From positions 62,001 to 126,000 of the IMG/VR virus record IMGVR_UViG_3300047510_001256: DNA of 64,000 bases. One strand, given 5' to 3'. Made by a program: the position numbers and the translations under genes. The notes below the pieces were generated by a model that was not told where the DNA came from, searched no databases, and was given only the letters and a program-made list of their open reading frames with translations. Shown here one piece after another: positions 158 to 56,374 of this stretch (within the stretch, counting starts at the first letter, position 1; every line of letters begins with the position of its first letter). Source of the DNA: a virus.

Positions 158-183
158 TTTGATCAAAAAGATATTTAGAGAAT

Positions 184-208
184 AAAAAAGAGGGCCTTGC
201 GACCCTCT
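184..208 (-). terminator. Intrinsic terminator after psbA
   Basis: On the minus strand AGAGGG and CCCTCT pair around a short loop (189-208), followed by a run of T (template A at 184-189). It lies just past the psbA stop and before the glutaredoxin gene. Confidence 0.75.
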
Positions 209-209
209 C

Positions 210-1314: not shown

Positions 1315-1377
1315 AGTTTTAAAAGTTCGTAAGGTTTAAAGTATGTGAAGAAATGTTTCCATTCCTTAACAATATTT

Positions 1378-1407
1378 AGTATACCCCATCACCAATTGGT
1401 CTGTCAA
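1378..1407 (-). promoter_or_regulatory. psbA promoter
   Basis: TTGACA (1407-1402), 18 bp spacer, TATACT (1383-1378), about 65 bp before the psbA ATG. This is a near-consensus host sigma70 site, consistent with early/middle expression by host RNA polymerase. Confidence 0.8.
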
Positions 1408-1493: not shown

Positions 1494-2660
1494 ATGGCAA
1501 GTCGCTATCCATTAGTTGTCAACACAGCAATTCCAAGAATAGAAGAGCTAAAGGGTGTAGATGATCTGAATCTATCCAATAGTCTGATTGAACTTAAGAA
1601 TGGATTGCCAACTGCCACCAATCAGATTCCAAGATACGATGGTGCTGACCTCTCTTGGATCAGTGGAAATACTTTTGTTTTAAATGTTGTTCCAGACCTA
1701 GTTAGAACAGCAACAACACAGACTCTTACCAACAAAACTATTGATGGTGGAACAAATACTCTACAAAATATTCCAAACTCATCTCTGGTAAATGATTCTA
1801 TTACTATTGATGGCACAGAAGTTTTCCTTGGTGATAGTATTGGAAGATTAGATACTGATACTAAGTATGAATTTAGTGGCACATCAATTGTTAACCAAGT
1901 CAGTATCAAATTACAAGCATATGATATTGAAAATAATACTGTAACTAATCCTGTTCCTAATGGTGACAGCACAATTAGATTCGTTGGATCTGGTGCTACT
2001 ACAGTGTCATGGAATGGAGTATCAAAAACAGTTACTATTTCATCCACAGATACAGATACAAACTCCACATACTCAGCACTTGCTAGTGGTGGTATTGCTC
2101 AAACTGGATCGGCATTCTCTCTGAATGGTTCAGGATCTTTTACAACCAACAGAGTTCTGAAATGGAATGGAACATCATTCAGTTTACAGAATAGCAATAT
2201 CACAGATACCGGATCACTAATTACTCTGTCTTCAGCAACAGAAATCAGCAGCACACTCAGAACAACTGGAGATGTAACTTTTGGATCTGAAACACCATCT
2301 CCTTCTCTTAATCTCAGAGGTGGAGTTCTTACAGTTGGTGGTAACGCAAACATTGTAGTCAGACAGACAACAAATGGTCTGGGTGTGACACTCACAGATA
2401 CAAGATTAATTTATGATGCCACCACTGGTGCTAAGGGATGGAAGATTGTAGAGGAAGGTGATGTAGCACAGGCAAGAACAATCTCATCTGTGACTACAAT
2501 CATGCCAGCAGCAGCTAACCCACAAAATAGTTCTTTAGCAGCAGCTCCTGCTACAAATGGTGCCATTGGTAGGGCAGGAGAAGTTAGATGGGATACTGGG
2601 TTTGTTTATTTTTGTGTAGCAAACAATAACTGGATTCGTGTTGTAAGAAGTGCCTTCTAA
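1494..2660 (+). CDS. Putative virion structural (tail-fibre-like) protein
   Basis: 388 residues, rich in Ser, Thr, Asn and Gly with beta-type composition and no transmembrane segment, as in cyanophage tail appendage proteins. The N-terminus (MASRYPLVVNTAIPRIEELK) and the motif TATTQTLTNKTIDGGTNT (around residue 74) belong to a class of phage fibre linkers. The C-terminus (VRWDTGFVYFCVANNNWIRV) looks like the small terminal domain often found at fibre tips. It is transcribed against its minus-strand neighbours from a late box at 1454-1465 and ends in a hairpin shared with hli. The exact virion position is not known from sequence. Confidence 0.75.
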   Translation: MASRYPLVVNTAIPRIEELKGVDDLNLSNSLIELKNGLPTATNQIPRYDGADLSWISGNTFVLNVVPDLVRTATTQTLTNKTIDGGTNTLQNIPNSSLVNDSITIDGTEVFLGDSIGRLDTDTKYEFSGTSIVNQVSIKLQAYDIENNTVTNPVPNGDSTIRFVGSGATTVSWNGVSKTVTISSTDTDTNSTYSALASGGIAQTGSAFSLNGSGSFTTNRVLKWNGTSFSLQNSNITDTGSLITLSSATEISSTLRTTGDVTFGSETPSPSLNLRGGVLTVGGNANIVVRQTTNGLGVTLTDTRLIYDATTGAKGWKIVEEGDVAQARTISSVTTIMPAAANPQNSSLAAAPATNGAIGRAGEVRWDTGFVYFCVANNNWIRVVRSAF

Positions 2661-2664
2661 TAAA

Positions 2665-2698
2665 AAAGACCTCCCTGTTATTTGGCAGGGAAGTCTTT
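2665..2698. terminator. Bidirectional hairpin terminator
   Basis: AAAGAC-C-TCCCTG pairs with CAGGGA-A-GTCTTT around an 8-nt loop. It lies between the convergent virion gene (plus) and hli (minus); T/A runs on both sides allow it to act in both directions. Confidence 0.7.
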
Positions 2699-2729
2699 AA
2701 GCGGCCGACGATATTCAGTTGTATTTATA

Positions 2730-3258: not shown

Positions 3259-3462
3259 TCAGAAGATGCCGAAAAAGAGTTTGCCAGTGCCAATATAAGA
3301 AACGAGCCCAGCAATAATACCGACCATAGCCCAGCGTCCATTATACATCTCCGTAGTTTGCATTGGGGTCATCAGACCTTTGCGATTGTATTCCTGATAG
3401 ACCATCTCAGGTTCTTTGGCGAACATGTTCATTTGTCCATGTTCATTAGTCGTTACAGTCAT
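3259..3462 (-). CDS. hli: High-light-inducible protein (67 residues)
   Basis: The start chosen is ATG at 3462 (MTVTTNEHGQMNMF); a TTG further upstream is in fact the -35 box of the promoter. The chlorophyll-binding motif is EMYNGRWAMVG (residues 38-48), followed by one membrane helix and TGKLFFGIF. The N-terminal extension before the helix makes it longer than the other Hlip in this window, so the two are distinct types. It is expected in thylakoids, protecting PSII together with phage D1. Confidence 0.93.
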   Translation of the reverse strand: MTVTTNEHGQMNMFAKEPEMVYQEYNRKGLMTPMQTTEMYNGRWAMVGIIAGLVSYIGTGKLFFGIF

Positions 3463-3489: not shown

Positions 3490-3519
3490 AGTATATAGGT
3501 GAAGGGGGAGTCTTGTCAA
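3490..3519 (-). promoter_or_regulatory. Promoter for hli (67 aa)
   Basis: TTGACA (3519-3514), 18 bp, TATACT (3495-3490). The -35 lies between runs of G and C (GGGGG...CCCCC) that can pair, so the box sits in the loop of a hairpin just past the upstream gene's stop. Confidence 0.75.
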
Positions 3520-3869
3520 CCCCCCCTGTCAGGAGATTCTAATTGTTTTCTTTTCCTTACTTGCTTTGCACTCCAAGCAGCGAATGCCATGATAGCAAAG
3601 TAGAATAGGTAGTCATCAATCATAACCAAAAAGAAAATAATAGATCCACCTATCCTCAAATAGTCCGGCATCGGAATCTTAGTAAAGATCCAACGAACCT
3701 GTTTCTCGAAGAGAAAGTATAGTGGTATGAGTGCAGTGACTACAAACTCACTATACGGAACTACGAAATACAGAGAGAGCAATACAAAGATTGGAAAGTA
3801 TTGTCTCTCTGGTATCCTCTTCAAGTATGAAATATATAAATCAATTGATCTCTTGAAGAGTTTTTTCAT
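3516..3869 (-). CDS. Hypothetical membrane protein
   Basis: 117 residues, not recognised. About three hydrophobic segments: residues 24-52, 72-84 and 86-100, with a basic N-terminus (MKKLFKRSIDLY) and a basic C-terminus (KQVRKRKQLE). The topology suggests a small inner-membrane or thylakoid protein. It is 6 bp from the porin gene and may be co-transcribed with it from the promoter at 5418-5446. Its stop codon overlaps the -35 box of the hli promoter. No function can be assigned. Confidence 0.65.
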   Translation of the reverse strand: MKKLFKRSIDLYISYLKRIPERQYFPIFVLLSLYFVVPYSEFVVTALIPLYFLFEKQVRWIFTKIPMPDYLRIGGSIIFFLVMIDDYLFYFAIMAFAAWSAKQVRKRKQLESPDRGG

Positions 3870-32248: not shown

Positions 32249-32318
32249 GGCGATACTGGATTTGAACCAGTGACCATCTCCGTGTAAAGGAGGCACTCTA
32301 CCGCTGAGTTAATCGCCC
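32249..32318 (-). tRNA. tRNA-Val (anticodon UAC)
   Basis: Acceptor GGGCGAT/ATCGCCC, anticodon loop TTTACAC between CTCC and GGAG, T-arm CTGGTTCAAATCCAG. Reads GTA/GTG. Confidence 0.93.
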
Positions 32319-32535
32319 TAGAGGGTGGTGAGATTCTATCATACTCACAATCGGGAAGGTCTCACTGATAGTAAGTGTTTTCCCAATACTTTCGGACTCC
32401 TTGATAGTGGATTCTCATACCTCTAGTCTCCTAGTCGTATGGCGGGTATCACCCCTGTCCTAATCTACATTACCCAGTGCTTGACCACATAGGTTATTCT
32501 GTCACACCCAGGAGAAACCCGTCAGTTTCTCCAAG
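32319..32535 (-). other. Structured non-coding spacer in tRNA cluster
   Basis: 217 bp between tRNA-Arg and tRNA-Val with no convincing reading frame or tRNA. Several stems are seen in the minus-strand RNA: GGAGAAAC/GTTTCTCC, GGGAA...TTCCC enclosing CACT/AGTG, and GTGAG/CTCAC. This could be a phage ncRNA, processing signals or remains of lost tRNAs. Confidence 0.4.
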
Positions 32536-32728: not shown

Positions 32729-32814
32729 TAGAGACCTCCCTGTTTGTGCTTCAATGAGAGGCATGGGAGGGGCGAGACTGACGCGAGGTTTGGACCCCCG
32801 CTGCTCATGAAATA
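32729..32814 (-). other. Leader with tRNA-like remnant
   Basis: About 85 bp between the promoter at 32815-32843 and tRNA-Tyr. The minus strand holds GGGGGTCCAAACCTCGC, which looks like a damaged T-arm, but no acceptor or anticodon arm can be folded around it. It may be a dead tRNA or a leader hairpin. Confidence 0.3.
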
Positions 32815-52794: not shown

Positions 52795-55296
52795 TTAAAA
52801 GAAGCTAAGAACAGAAGTTGTTTTTTCAGATTTCCACCCAATACATTCTAGCACATTCTGAACTGGTTTGAGAAACTTCTTCTCAAATTGTAGGGAGTAG
52901 TCAACATACTTCTCAAGATTAAACTCCTTTGGAATCTCACCAAAGAAAGCAATCACTGCTTCACCAATTGGATTTGGATCTTTAAGATAAACGTATTTGA
53001 CTTTCTCACCCTCTTGGATGGATTGGTATTTGTATTCAATTTTATGTTTTTTAAGAAGGTAATTATAGATCAGAGATCCCTTGACGGCAATTGGTGTGCC
53101 AGTCTTCTCACCTTTCTTGTAGATTGTATAAGGACTACGATACTTTGCCAGATTATTTACGCCGCTAGGAGTAGCAATCGCAGCATAGTTTTGTGTCTTG
53201 GTATCCTTCTTGACTTCAGCAATGTAATCAATCAGATCTTCATTTGTTTTGTTGATGATGATCTGATATGCCTGATACAATTTGTCTCTGAAGTATTGTG
53301 GAGTTGAGGATCGTGCGGTCTCAAGACCACAGATCTTCAGTTTAGGTTGCTTGTATCTAACACCCTCGCTGTCCCATACATTCAAGGCATAGCGTTTCTT
53401 GGCAGTCCAGAATCCGCGACTAGCGATGTTCTCTCGCTTCATCTTCATCTTCTGTTCGTATGCGTTCACATACTCTGCCAGCGTTTGGTAAGAACTTTCA
53501 ATAAAAGGTTCAAGTTCCATCGCACACACCTTGTCAAGGAAATTAACAATTTCCTCATCAGTTTTTTCTCTTCCTTGGAGTATACATTTGACAAAAGGAC
53601 CAAGGTTAAGATACATGGAATCAGTATCCATAGCAACGACATAATCTTCTCCATCAGTTTTGAGAATCTTATTGAGATGTGCGTTCATACACTTCTCAAT
53701 CCAGCGAATAGAAAGCTGACCAGACAAAGTAATTGCTTCAGCAATCTCCAGCATATAATAGCGGAAGTGCTGGTTTCCAATCGCACCATAGGCAGAGTTG
53801 AGTGAGATCTTCTTTGCCATCTGAATGTTATTGTAGCGAGCAATATCTTTCATCAACTGAATTGTTGGTGTCTTTTCATATTGCTTCTTTGCCTCAAGCA
53901 TCTTCTTCTTATAGATCACACGCTCATCATACATCTTCTTCATCATCTTAGGGAGAAACCCTTGCTTGGTTGTATCGTAATACGTTCCATTGGCGCAGAG
54001 AGTTTTATCCTCAAGATCAGAAAGATTCAGTTCTTGATTAAGCAGTTTGTCTACATTGACAGAAGGATGACGCTGTGGCAGTAGAGTCTCTGGGGAAAGA
54101 TTATACTGCATGATCAAGTGAGGATACAGAGAGTTAAGGTCAAAGGAAATTACCCAGTCATAAATGCCGGGAATAGGTTCCTTGACATATGCTCCAGCAT
54201 ACTTCTTGTCTTTCTCTGATTCAGACTTAGGTGGAATGGCAACTTTATTCTTCAGCAATTCAATGTAAATGTAGTTGTCCCACATACGAACCTGCGAGAA
54301 TACATCCTCAAAGTTTACCTTTGCGTCGTATGCCATAGTGAACGCAAGGTCAAGAAGCTTCATCTTGTCATCAAGTTGATCAACAAGGCGAACGTCATGA
54401 ATGTTATATTCAATAAACTTCTGCCAGTCTTTGGTATAGAACTCTTTGAACGTATCGTATTCAGAGTGATCTAGTTTTGTAGCACCAAGTTCCACAAAGC
54501 AGATGTGATTCAAAGCATATGATTCTTGATTAGTATAAGTAAACTTTTTGTAAAGTTGAATGTAATCAAGAATAGACATGCCAAGAATATCACATGCTGT
54601 CTGCTCTTTATTATTGATTTCAATCTTGCGAGTTGAAACAAGTCTCCACGGCGAAAGCATCCGAAGATACTTGTCACCAAGAATTCTAGTAATACGATTG
54701 GCGATGTAGGGCATGTCAAAGAACTCTACGTTCCAACCTGTGATCACATCAGGATAATTCTCTACCCACCAGTGAACAAAGTTGGTGAGCATTGCCTGCT
54801 CATCTTTGAAATGTAGATAATCTACATCGTCAAACTTATTGTCAAATGGTTTTGCTCCCCAGACAGTGATGCGACCACTATAAGAGTCCTTCAAACTAAT
54901 GGACAGGATTGCTTGGTCTGCTGTTTCAATATCTGGGAAACCATTTTCTGCTGCTGTCTCAATGTCAATATTAAATACACGGATCAGAGAAGCATCGTAT
55001 TTAATCTCATCCTCAGGATGTTCCTCGGCAATGTATTGATAGAGATAGCGTGTGTTTCCATAGACGGGAACATCTGTTTTAGAACAACGCTTTACAAAGT
55101 CCTTTGCTTCCTCAATAGATCCTTGAGGAACAGGGGAAATGAGTTCACCTTGTAATGTTTTCCACTCGGAATAATTACGCGATTTGATATAGAGAGTAGG
55201 GGCAAAAGGAACCTTCTCAGTAATCCTCTTCCCCCCCTGATACCCCACCACCAGCAGGCGGTTCCCCGCCTGTTCTATCTTCGTGTAAAACTTCAT
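52795..55296 (-). CDS. 43: DNA polymerase, family B, T4 gp43-like
   Basis: 833 residues. Exonuclease motifs: VFNIDIETAAENGFPD (Exo I), ITGWNVEFFDMPYI (Exo II); polymerase motifs: SFDLNSLYPHLIMQYNLSPE (A), KKISLNSAYGAIGN (B), VVAMDTDSMYLN (C, DTDS). Proofreading domain is intact. C-terminus ends KTTSVLSFF, which fits the clamp-binding tail of gp43. The first 80 bp overlap the end of the next upstream gene. Co-operates with gp45 and gp44/62 from this window. Confidence 0.99.
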   Translation of the reverse strand: MKFYTKIEQAGNRLLVVGYQGGKRITEKVPFAPTLYIKSRNYSEWKTLQGELISPVPQGSIEEAKDFVKRCSKTDVPVYGNTRYLYQYIAEEHPEDEIKYDASLIRVFNIDIETAAENGFPDIETADQAILSISLKDSYSGRITVWGAKPFDNKFDDVDYLHFKDEQAMLTNFVHWWVENYPDVITGWNVEFFDMPYIANRITRILGDKYLRMLSPWRLVSTRKIEINNKEQTACDILGMSILDYIQLYKKFTYTNQESYALNHICFVELGATKLDHSEYDTFKEFYTKDWQKFIEYNIHDVRLVDQLDDKMKLLDLAFTMAYDAKVNFEDVFSQVRMWDNYIYIELLKNKVAIPPKSESEKDKKYAGAYVKEPIPGIYDWVISFDLNSLYPHLIMQYNLSPETLLPQRHPSVNVDKLLNQELNLSDLEDKTLCANGTYYDTTKQGFLPKMMKKMYDERVIYKKKMLEAKKQYEKTPTIQLMKDIARYNNIQMAKKISLNSAYGAIGNQHFRYYMLEIAEAITLSGQLSIRWIEKCMNAHLNKILKTDGEDYVVAMDTDSMYLNLGPFVKCILQGREKTDEEIVNFLDKVCAMELEPFIESSYQTLAEYVNAYEQKMKMKRENIASRGFWTAKKRYALNVWDSEGVRYKQPKLKICGLETARSSTPQYFRDKLYQAYQIIINKTNEDLIDYIAEVKKDTKTQNYAAIATPSGVNNLAKYRSPYTIYKKGEKTGTPIAVKGSLIYNYLLKKHKIEYKYQSIQEGEKVKYVYLKDPNPIGEAVIAFFGEIPKEFNLEKYVDYSLQFEKKFLKPVQNVLECIGWKSEKTTSVLSFF

Positions 55297-55537
55297 GATA
55301 TGTAAGATACGCTGCTTTTAACTCTGGACCCGGTTCTATCATAGTATCACAATCCATGAACCGGATGGCGCATTGTGACACTTGGTAATCTGGTATGTAT
55401 CTCACCAGTTCTTGATCTTTGACAATCATTGGAGACTTCAGCAGAAGATCTGGATCACCAATTTCGGTTTCCAATTCTTCTGCCTCAGCTATGATCCAAT
55501 CACTCTTCAGTTTCAGCAGGAGTATCAGTTGACTCAT
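55217..55537 (-). CDS. Small protein overlapping polymerase start, 106 aa
   Basis: Start MSQLILLLKLKSDWIIAEAE at 55537 (an ATG 5 codons earlier is possible). ELETEIGDPDLLLKSPMIVK and LELRY-like VRYIPDYQVSQCAIRF follow; the last 27 residues (HEDRTGGEPPAGGG...) overlap gp43 in another frame. The front half resembles small Sm-like barrel proteins seen next to gp43 in cyanophages (KSDWIIAE.EEL..EIGDPD). Function unknown; overlap with both neighbours suggests coupled translation. Confidence 0.75.
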   Translation of the reverse strand: MSQLILLLKLKSDWIIAEAEELETEIGDPDLLLKSPMIVKDQELVRYIPDYQVSQCAIRFMDCDTMIEPGPELKAAYLTYHEVLHEDRTGGEPPAGGGVSGGEEDY

Positions 55538-55871
55538 CTTCGGGGATCTCATCTACAATATCGACAGAATTAAAGTATTCAATTTTTTCAGCAAAGGCAG
55601 CATCAAGATTTGGATCTGGTGCTGTAACACAAACAACCGCATCATAAGGAACTCGGAAAACTCTGTCGAGAGTAAATGGATTCCAACGAGCAAATCTTAC
55701 CTTACTTCTATCAGCAGGATCTTCAGCTTCAGGATTTTCGTAAAGCTCTAGAGCAAAAGGATCACTCAATTGAAGACCAACTCCTTTTCTATCATCTCCT
55801 TCGCCTTGATAAATTTCGCGCACTTCACAGATAATATTCTGTCCAGTTTTCAACGTAACAATGGATGCCAT
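55500..55871 (-). CDS. Sm-like barrel hypothetical, 123 aa
   Basis: MASIVTLKTGQNIICEVREI, then YQGEGDDRKGVGLQLSDPFA and FARWNPFTLDRVFRVPYDAV with VCVTAPDP. The front half (LKTGQ.IICEV.EI...GV.L.DPF) fits an Sm-like fold; the C-terminus is acidic and disordered (EIPEDESTDTPAETEE). Conserved beside gp43 in cyanophages. It starts downstream of a strong early promoter at 55895-55923. RNA binding is plausible, not shown. Confidence 0.72.
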   Translation of the reverse strand: MASIVTLKTGQNIICEVREIYQGEGDDRKGVGLQLSDPFALELYENPEAEDPADRSKVRFARWNPFTLDRVFRVPYDAVVCVTAPDPNLDAAFAEKIEYFNSVDIVDEIPEDESTDTPAETEE

Positions 55872-55894: not shown

Positions 55895-55923
55895 AGTATA
55901 GCAAAAAATATGGGGGGCGTCAA
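55895..55923 (-). promoter_or_regulatory. Promoter for the gp43 operon, in a terminator loop
   Basis: TTGACG (55923-55918), 17 bp, TATACT (55900-55895). The -35 lies in the loop of the GGGGGGC/GCCCCCC hairpin at 55912-55930. Confidence 0.8.
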
Positions 55924-55930
55924 GCCCCCC
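55901..55930 (-). terminator. Terminator after hsp20 overlapping a promoter
   Basis: GGGGGGC-TTGAC-GCCCCCC (55930-55912) followed by ATATTTTTT. Stops hsp20 transcripts while its loop holds the -35 of the next promoter. Confidence 0.8.
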
Positions 55931-55939
55931 TGAGTTTAT

Positions 55940-56374
55940 TTAGAACCAGTCTTTTCTTTTGTGATGATCAGGAACAATCTTACCCAACATGATTGTTAAG
56001 AGCCCATCCTCAAATTCAACTGATCTAACTTCCGTTTCATCTGTGAGGGTCCAAGATCTGGTGAAAGATCTTTGAGCCATTCCTCTGTGGATAAACGTTG
56101 TGTCTGTTTCTCTGTCTTCTTTTTGTCCTTCCACGAATAGTTTTCCATCTTGGGTATACACGTTAACTTCTTTTTTCTTAAATCCAGCCAACGCAATCTC
56201 AAGTCTAGACTCTACATTACTAATTTCAATGTGATTGTATGGTGGATAGTTGGATGACGTTTCGTGAAGAGTGAAAATTCTATTGAAGTATTCGTCCATA
56301 CCGATGGTATTTTTCGTGATCTTATCCATGAGGACAGGAAGATCATTAGCAGTATAACGCATTAAAGTGTTCAT
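55940..56374 (-). CDS. hsp20: Small heat-shock protein, Hsp20/alpha-crystallin
   Basis: 144 residues from ATG 56374, with AAGGAGAAA as ribosome site. The alpha-crystallin domain is at about 50-140: NVESRLEIALAGFKKKEVNV, GKLFVEGQKEDRE and SVEFEDGLLTIMLG. N-terminal region MNTLMRYTANDLPVLMDKIT is typical of cyanophage Hsp20. An ATP-independent holdase that probably helps virion assembly or protects proteins under stress. A weak promoter (TTGTGA/TAAATT) may lie near 56475-56505. Confidence 0.95.
   Translation of the reverse strand: MNTLMRYTANDLPVLMDKITKNTIGMDEYFNRIFTLHETSSNYPPYNHIEISNVESRLEIALAGFKKKEVNVYTQDGKLFVEGQKEDRETDTTFIHRGMAQRSFTRSWTLTDETEVRSVEFEDGLLTIMLGKIVPDHHKRKDWF

Follow-up and report, generated by a model that had tools for sequence, protein, structure and literature searches.

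A DNA stretch with the sequence features of both an intrinsic terminator and a sigma70-type promoter between hsp20 and the gp43 unit of a T4-like cyanophage

A 36-bp element located at positions 55895-55930 (minus strand), between the hsp20 gene and the small ORF that precedes gp43, combines a terminator hairpin, a T-run and a -10 box in the 64,000-nucleotide stretch of viral DNA that was analysed (the window). The virus record from which the window comes is 144,687 bases long and has a T4-like cyanophage gene set that includes hsp20, gp43, gp44, psbA and hli, among others. In this element, a single stretch of DNA satisfies two sequence definitions at once, intrinsic terminator and sigma70-type promoter, with both signals pointing in the same direction, and both have been selected. 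The arrangement recurs across many related phages in which the letters change while pairing and spacing are kept, indicating that it is a selected regulatory part rather than a coincidence. We consider it very likely that an intrinsic terminator and a sigma70-type promoter acting in one direction are fused in this element, with the U-tract of the former placed in the spacer of the latter.

Structure of the element at the hsp20/gp43 junction

The upstream gene, hsp20 (55940-56374, minus strand), encodes a small heat-shock protein (phrog_432 Hsp20, E 5e-54) and is annotated at the corresponding position in S-SM2, S-SKS1, Bellamy and other phages. Nine bases past its stop codon starts a hairpin formed by the 5′ arm GGGGGGC (55924-55930), the loop TTGAC (55919-55923) and the 3′ arm GCCCCCC (55912-55918), with a stem of 7 bp, all of them GC. 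The RNA of 55930-55912 folds with -17.1 kcal/mol (z -3.4) and is directly followed by the U-tract ATATTTTTTG, with 7 T among its first 10 bases; these features are those of a predicted terminator for hsp20. The loop and the next base (55918) make up the -35 hexamer TTGACG, and the 3′ arm doubles as the first part of the promoter spacer. The stretch ATATTTTTTGC (55901-55911) contributes both the U-tract and the second part of the spacer, and it ends in the TGn of an extended -10 hexamer, TATACT (55895-55900). With a spacer of 17 bp and 10 of 12 consensus matches, this is a near-consensus promoter as judged from its letters. The earlier note had described the hairpin, the T-run and the TATACT box at 17 bp, and its description proved correct to the base. 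It had also assigned the promoter to the gp43 cluster, which holds with the precision that an ORF of the phrog_431 family (55500-55871, minus strand, start at 55871, function not assigned) comes first and is followed by the gene for the 833-aa gp43 DNA polymerase (52795-55296, minus strand); the same gene order is found in S-SM2, Sf-CH8 and Bellamy. The 17-base hairpin core is present as a single copy in the window at 0 mismatches, with 0.03 chance matches expected in the window at up to 3 mismatches.

Each half taken separately has familiar counterparts. Intrinsic terminators likewise show a GC-rich stem, a short loop and a U-tract directly past a stop codon; in contrast to them, the loop or 3′ arm of the hairpin is here also the -35 box of the next promoter, and the length of the U-tract is tied to the 17-bp spacer. 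Similarly, the sigma70-type early promoters of T4-like cyanophages follow the pattern TTGAC-17-TATAAT, often with TGn before the -10 box, whereas a -35 box within a pairing hairpin is found in 28 of 341 such promoters in ten genomes.

Conservation at the hsp20 locus and the candidate late RNA

A set of 80 hsp20 loci, collected by protein alone, provided 69 distinct gaps downstream of the gene. Promoter, hairpin and T-run were scored together in 36 of them, of which 32 are clear; the other four are weak and differ in type, with a palindrome such as GTATCA...TGATAC. The element is lacking from about half of the 69 gaps. The close relatives L001 to L004 keep the element including the -10 box, and in L004, where the stem is one pair shorter than that of the window, an extra T holds the spacer at 17. 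In S-SM2, S-SKS1, SynMITS9220M01, S-SRM01 and Bellamy, the junction between hsp20, the phrog_431-like gene and gp43 carries a long hairpin form, GAGGGGN-AACTGG-CAAAAT-CCAGTT-GAC-NCCCCTC-TTTTTT...TATAAT, in which the -35 box straddles the 3′ arm and a bulge. The -35 box is situated in the loop in the window and in the 3′ arm of a longer hairpin in most relatives. This long form was found in 285 phage records, nearly all of them from cyanophages and mostly once per genome. At the hsp20 site of Sf-CH8 and S-T4, the -35 box is placed in a hairpin that has no U-tract. The trait is not universal, and it comes and goes between lineages. As a separate observation, in L378, L397, L421 and other loci the palindrome GTATCA...TGATAC followed by TATATAAT stands after hsp20 in place of the fused element; the palindrome is present in 17 of the 69 distinct gaps.

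The pairing itself is conserved in relatives, as the earlier note required. In 25 aligned long forms, 99.1% of the pair cells are standard, and 23 two-sided stem changes were counted vs 5.6 in shuffled alignments, a number that was reached in none of 500 shuffles; slid controls gave 0-4. Furthermore, the base after TTGAC co-varies with the base before AACTGG (C-G, T-A, A-T).

The stop codon TAA of hsp20 is included in the motif CTAAATA (55937-55943, minus strand), a T4-type late-promoter-like sequence that may serve as a promoter and that is present at the hsp20 stop in 44 of the 69 distinct relatives. The T4-type late promoter is quoted as TATAAATA, with NATATAATA given for cyanophages (PMC3184105). 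The top two 7-mers enriched upstream of ORFs in the ten genomes were ATAAATA (26 times) and CTAAATA (19 times), an enrichment that fits a T4-type late promoter in its letters. A late transcript from CTAAATA would run straight into the hairpin. An attenuator or riboswitch would lie downstream of the start of the transcript that it regulates; the hairpin is upstream of the start of the sigma70 promoter, and may be downstream of a late start at CTAAATA. A late small RNA or an attenuator from CTAAATA is possible.

These observations raise an alternative in which the main task of the hairpin is to end, within tens of bases, a late transcript started at CTAAATA, which would be a small RNA or an attenuator before gp43, with the sigma70 promoter as the early-phase partner. 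We regard this as unlikely to be the main role; the alternative is compatible with a fused element and partly overlaps with it. It draws on the position of CTAAATA, which ends 6 nt before the hairpin, and on a block, ATATCGTCGNCGC, that is conserved in relatives between the motif and the hairpin. In addition, S-RIM8, ACG-2014b and S-H35 carry the cassette of late motif, block and hairpin at another location, which is not orthologous, and DSL-LC03 and L401 have the block and a terminator without TTGAC. Against it, the ATATCGTCGNCGC block is missing at the hsp20 site of the window. Moreover, 102 of the 893 TAA stops of long ORFs in the ten genomes (about 11%) are followed by ATA, so that the overlap of a late motif with a stop codon is no peculiarity of the hsp20 site; from this frequency, the late promoter [AC]TAAATA may often include a stop codon.

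A related arrangement exists elsewhere in the window (2660-2725, minus strand), where ATAAATA is followed by TATCGTCGGCCGC and by a terminator hairpin (2698-2665) with a T-run and without a -35 box. Many cyanophages have the TATCGTCG block with its terminator after hsp20, and S-RIM8 and S-H35 have it near hli/psbA; the combination can be considered a candidate conserved small RNA from its sequence, and has no Rfam match. A known RNA family was rejected as an explanation, given that no Rfam match was obtained at either site of the window, and at the relatives Rfam yielded only sub-threshold ROSE-like matches located upstream of hsp20. Elsewhere in the window, on the minus strand, Rfam matched a manA RNA (RF01745, 94.9 bits; 32318-32532) set between the genes for tRNA-Val and tRNA-Arg, and an abiF RNA (RF03085, 45.1 bits; 32734-32770) next to tRNA-Tyr.

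Other contacts between late motifs and neighbouring signals were observed. Upstream of psbA (window 1373-1383, minus strand), the -10 box TATACT (1383-1378) overlaps CTAAATA (1379-1373) as TATACTAAATA, a possible early/late double promoter. Late motifs often come straight after the T-run of a terminator: of the 474 terminators, 26 have one no more than 10 nt from the end of the stem. After psbA (172-209, minus strand), for example, the sequence reads GAGAGGGTCGCAAGGCCCTCTT-ttttattct-CTAAATA.

Recurrence before hli and in other phages

A second site in the window, for which the earlier note had proposed a similar frame, resembles the first in part. The hli promoter (3490-3519, minus strand; TTGACA-18-TATACT, spacer 18) is located ahead of the gene for a high-light-inducible protein (3259-3462, minus strand; phrog_178, E 4e-27), and a hairpin, AGGGGGGG-TTGACAAGA-CTCCCCCT (3503-3527, minus strand; -18.8 kcal/mol), does surround its -35 box. 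The T-run is lost, so this hairpin is not a proper terminator. A full terminator-promoter is present at the orthologous hli site in S-SSM4, S-SKS1, S-CAM1, Syn1 and S-H9-2, an example from the hli sites of named cyanophages being GAGGGG-CTTGACG-CCCCTC-TTTTTTT-...TATAAT. In P-RSM6, the hli site keeps the promoter and has lost the hairpin. Taken with the T-run loss in the window, this indicates that the terminator and promoter functions can part and that, at hli, the promoter is the more durable half. It was also observed that the ORF preceding hli ends in a TGA stop (3518-3516, minus strand) that sits within the -35 box TTGACA, inside the hairpin, so that a translating ribosome would cover that hairpin.

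The presence of TTGAC in GC hairpins of other cyanophages, which the earlier note had suggested searching for, was borne out by its recurrence at hsp20 and hli, with two restrictions: it is not universal, and the motif is often in the 3′ arm and not in the loop. Among 128 distinct viral sites, 34 precede hli, and the remaining ones precede glutaredoxin, gp44, gp32, thyX, psbA and genes of no assigned function. The upstream stop codon is mostly 5-45 nt before such elements, and the downstream start is often about 20-30 nt past the -10 box. The design is not restricted to cyanophages, since three such elements were found in the Stenotrophomonas jumbo phage RAS14. Bacterial and archaeal genomes (257 Gb) gave 21 strict matches, few of them with a T-run, a figure that allows no exact ratio to the viral one given that the size of the viral collection is not stated; these 21 matches in 257 Gb argue against a widespread bacterial element acquired by phages. 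Blast matches in Staphylococcus phage 2638A and Acinetobacter phage AB1I1M-1 were terminator-like without TTGAC and were not counted.

Viral contigs were also scanned for GGGGG.TTGAC.CCCCC with no -10 box in the query, which returned at least 107 distinct sites. Taking as -10-like any hexamer that departs from TATAAT at no more than one of its six positions, 50 of the 107 distinct sites listed have one at 16-18 bp, 40 of them at exactly 17, compared with 0-6 in the other three-base spacing classes among the listed sites, and 48 of these 50 also have a T-run. No -10 spacing peak was seen on the opposite strand of the 107 listed sites, where T-runs are also far less common than on the TTGAC strand. 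As neither T-runs nor -10 boxes accumulate on the opposite strand, a bidirectional terminator was ruled out. The composite pattern including the -10 box gave at least 120 matches in viral contigs, vs 0 when the -10 box was shifted seven bases away.

Promoters and hairpins were counted in ten whole or nearly whole genomes: the record of the window, one related contig taken from the composite scan, and eight named cyanophages picked by hsp20 similarity and not by the hairpin. Of 474 terminator-like hairpins, 25 contain a -35 box with a -10 box at 16-18 bp (score of at least 10/12), 20 of them at exactly 17, and the other spacing classes hold 1-5. TTGACA ranks first of its 180 letter permutations (28 vs a mean of 2.2), the runners-up including frame shifts of the same TTGACA site. 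The -35 box is in a hairpin in 28 (about 8%) of the 341 TTGAC...TATAAT promoters, strongly so in 23, whereas 1000 swaps of arms between the 341 promoters gave a mean of 8.3 and a maximum of 17 for all hairpins and a mean of 2.9 and a maximum of 9 for strong ones. For TTGAC without a -10 box, enclosing hairpins were found in 44 of 3735 cases and strong ones in 17 of 3735. The stems vary between sites of the ten genomes (AGGAACCC/GGGTTCCT, AGGGCACC/GGTGCCCT, AAGGAGGG/CCCTCCTT and others), which indicates that the pairing and not the letters is kept. Altogether, the spacing, permutation, arm-swap and covariation controls rule out a chance origin. The proposal that a repeated arrangement reflects a selected compact design is sustained by spacing specificity, arm pairing, covariation and recurrence at hsp20 and hli.

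These counts bear on two further alternatives. The first is that only the promoter is functional and the G-run/C-run frame around the -35 box serves DNA-level purposes (cruciform, spacer shape, duplex stability) with no termination. The hli sites of P-RSM6, with a promoter and no hairpin, and of the window, with a hairpin and no T-run, would agree with it, as would the early promoters of phage RB49, which have GC hairpins in the spacer and no T-run. We consider this explanation improbable in view of the T-run that directly follows the stem in 115 of the 128 distinct viral sites, the much higher frequency of T-runs on the TTGAC strand, the location of the sites just past a stop codon, and stem letters that vary freely with the pairing kept. 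The second, that the element is only a terminator in which TTGAC and TATACT arose by chance from a frequent loop sequence and an AT-rich flank, can appeal to the abundance of terminators (474 in ten genomes) and to the resemblance of T-rich tails to -10 boxes, and is made very improbable by the spacing peak at exactly 17, the first rank of TTGACA among 180 permutations, the zero matches at shifted spacing, the -10 box kept in close relatives and the TTGAC kept while the surrounding stem changes. The fused terminator and promoter is the reading retained below.

The RB49 early promoters (L454, L455, L456) were themselves compared: a GC hairpin fills the -35/-10 spacer, as in TTGACGGGGATCGGGAGATCCCCTATAAT, and a T-run is lacking. 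With its hairpin between the two boxes this design is a different one, and they were not taken as instances of the same one.

Known systems, proposed function and significance

Short GC hairpins are part of the promoter in N4-type promoters for virion RNA polymerase, in which the hairpin would suffice and a -10/-35 pair would not be needed. The present element differs from these in that it retains a -10 box at the distance typical of sigma70 while its stem can vary in sequence, and nothing suggests single-strand recognition. In the accessible part of Sullivan et al. 2010, promoters and terminators of cyanophages were predicted as separate features, with no fusion described (PMC3037559). The available portion of a Mycoplasma transcriptome paper, considered as a possible precedent, does not describe the fusion either. 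No description of a fused terminator-promoter with fixed geometry and recurrence was found in the literature searched, where subscription journals are thinly covered, so this absence is weak evidence.

On the proposed mechanism, RNA polymerase leaving hsp20 would make the hairpin GGGGGGC-UUGAC-GCCCCCC and the U-tract and stop there. In duplex DNA, TTGACG would be read as the -35 box, the 3′ arm and U-tract as the 17-bp spacer, and TATACT with its upstream TG as the -10 box. Transcription of the gp43 unit would then begin about 7 bp past the -10 box, at a distance of about 20 bp from where the hsp20 transcript ends. Since the upstream RNA would already have ended where the downstream RNA starts, the two signals overlap in the DNA and not in the RNA. 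We infer from these sequence features that both signals probably work in vivo and that the element, at a minimal cost in DNA, probably keeps read-through from hsp20 out of the gp43 unit.

In vitro, polymerase that stays on the DNA once intrinsic termination has taken place can start again from a promoter close by (Kang et al. 2020, PMC6978380). The template of that study resembles the present element in that an intrinsic terminator is followed by a promoter of the same orientation; unlike here, where the two signals overlap, its terminator and promoter are separate (PMC6978380). The overlap implies that a released polymerase would already lie on the promoter, and by analogy we speculate that polymerase released at the U-tract could restart there; occlusion of the promoter by incoming polymerase would be the opposite possibility. 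A more extended relay may be envisaged, in which the terminated polymerase is handed to the promoter, and transcription from upstream would thereby either supply the following unit or block it. In this relay, a late-promoter-headed cassette of many cyanophages would in addition produce a short, conserved late RNA, and the early promoter of the operon that follows would lie in the terminator of this RNA. We hold this relay to be doubtful and put it forward tentatively.

The fusion explains overlapping calls by promoter and terminator predictors in these genomes, and offers a natural setting for the open question of polymerase re-initiation after intrinsic termination in cells. It also provides a model from nature, tested by evolution, for gene junctions that are both compact and insulated. 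Promoters and terminators are usually annotated separately; here, a single short stretch is under both constraints in a large number of phages, and it stands before major gene units, those of gp43 and hli and also those of gp44, gp32, glutaredoxin and thyX.
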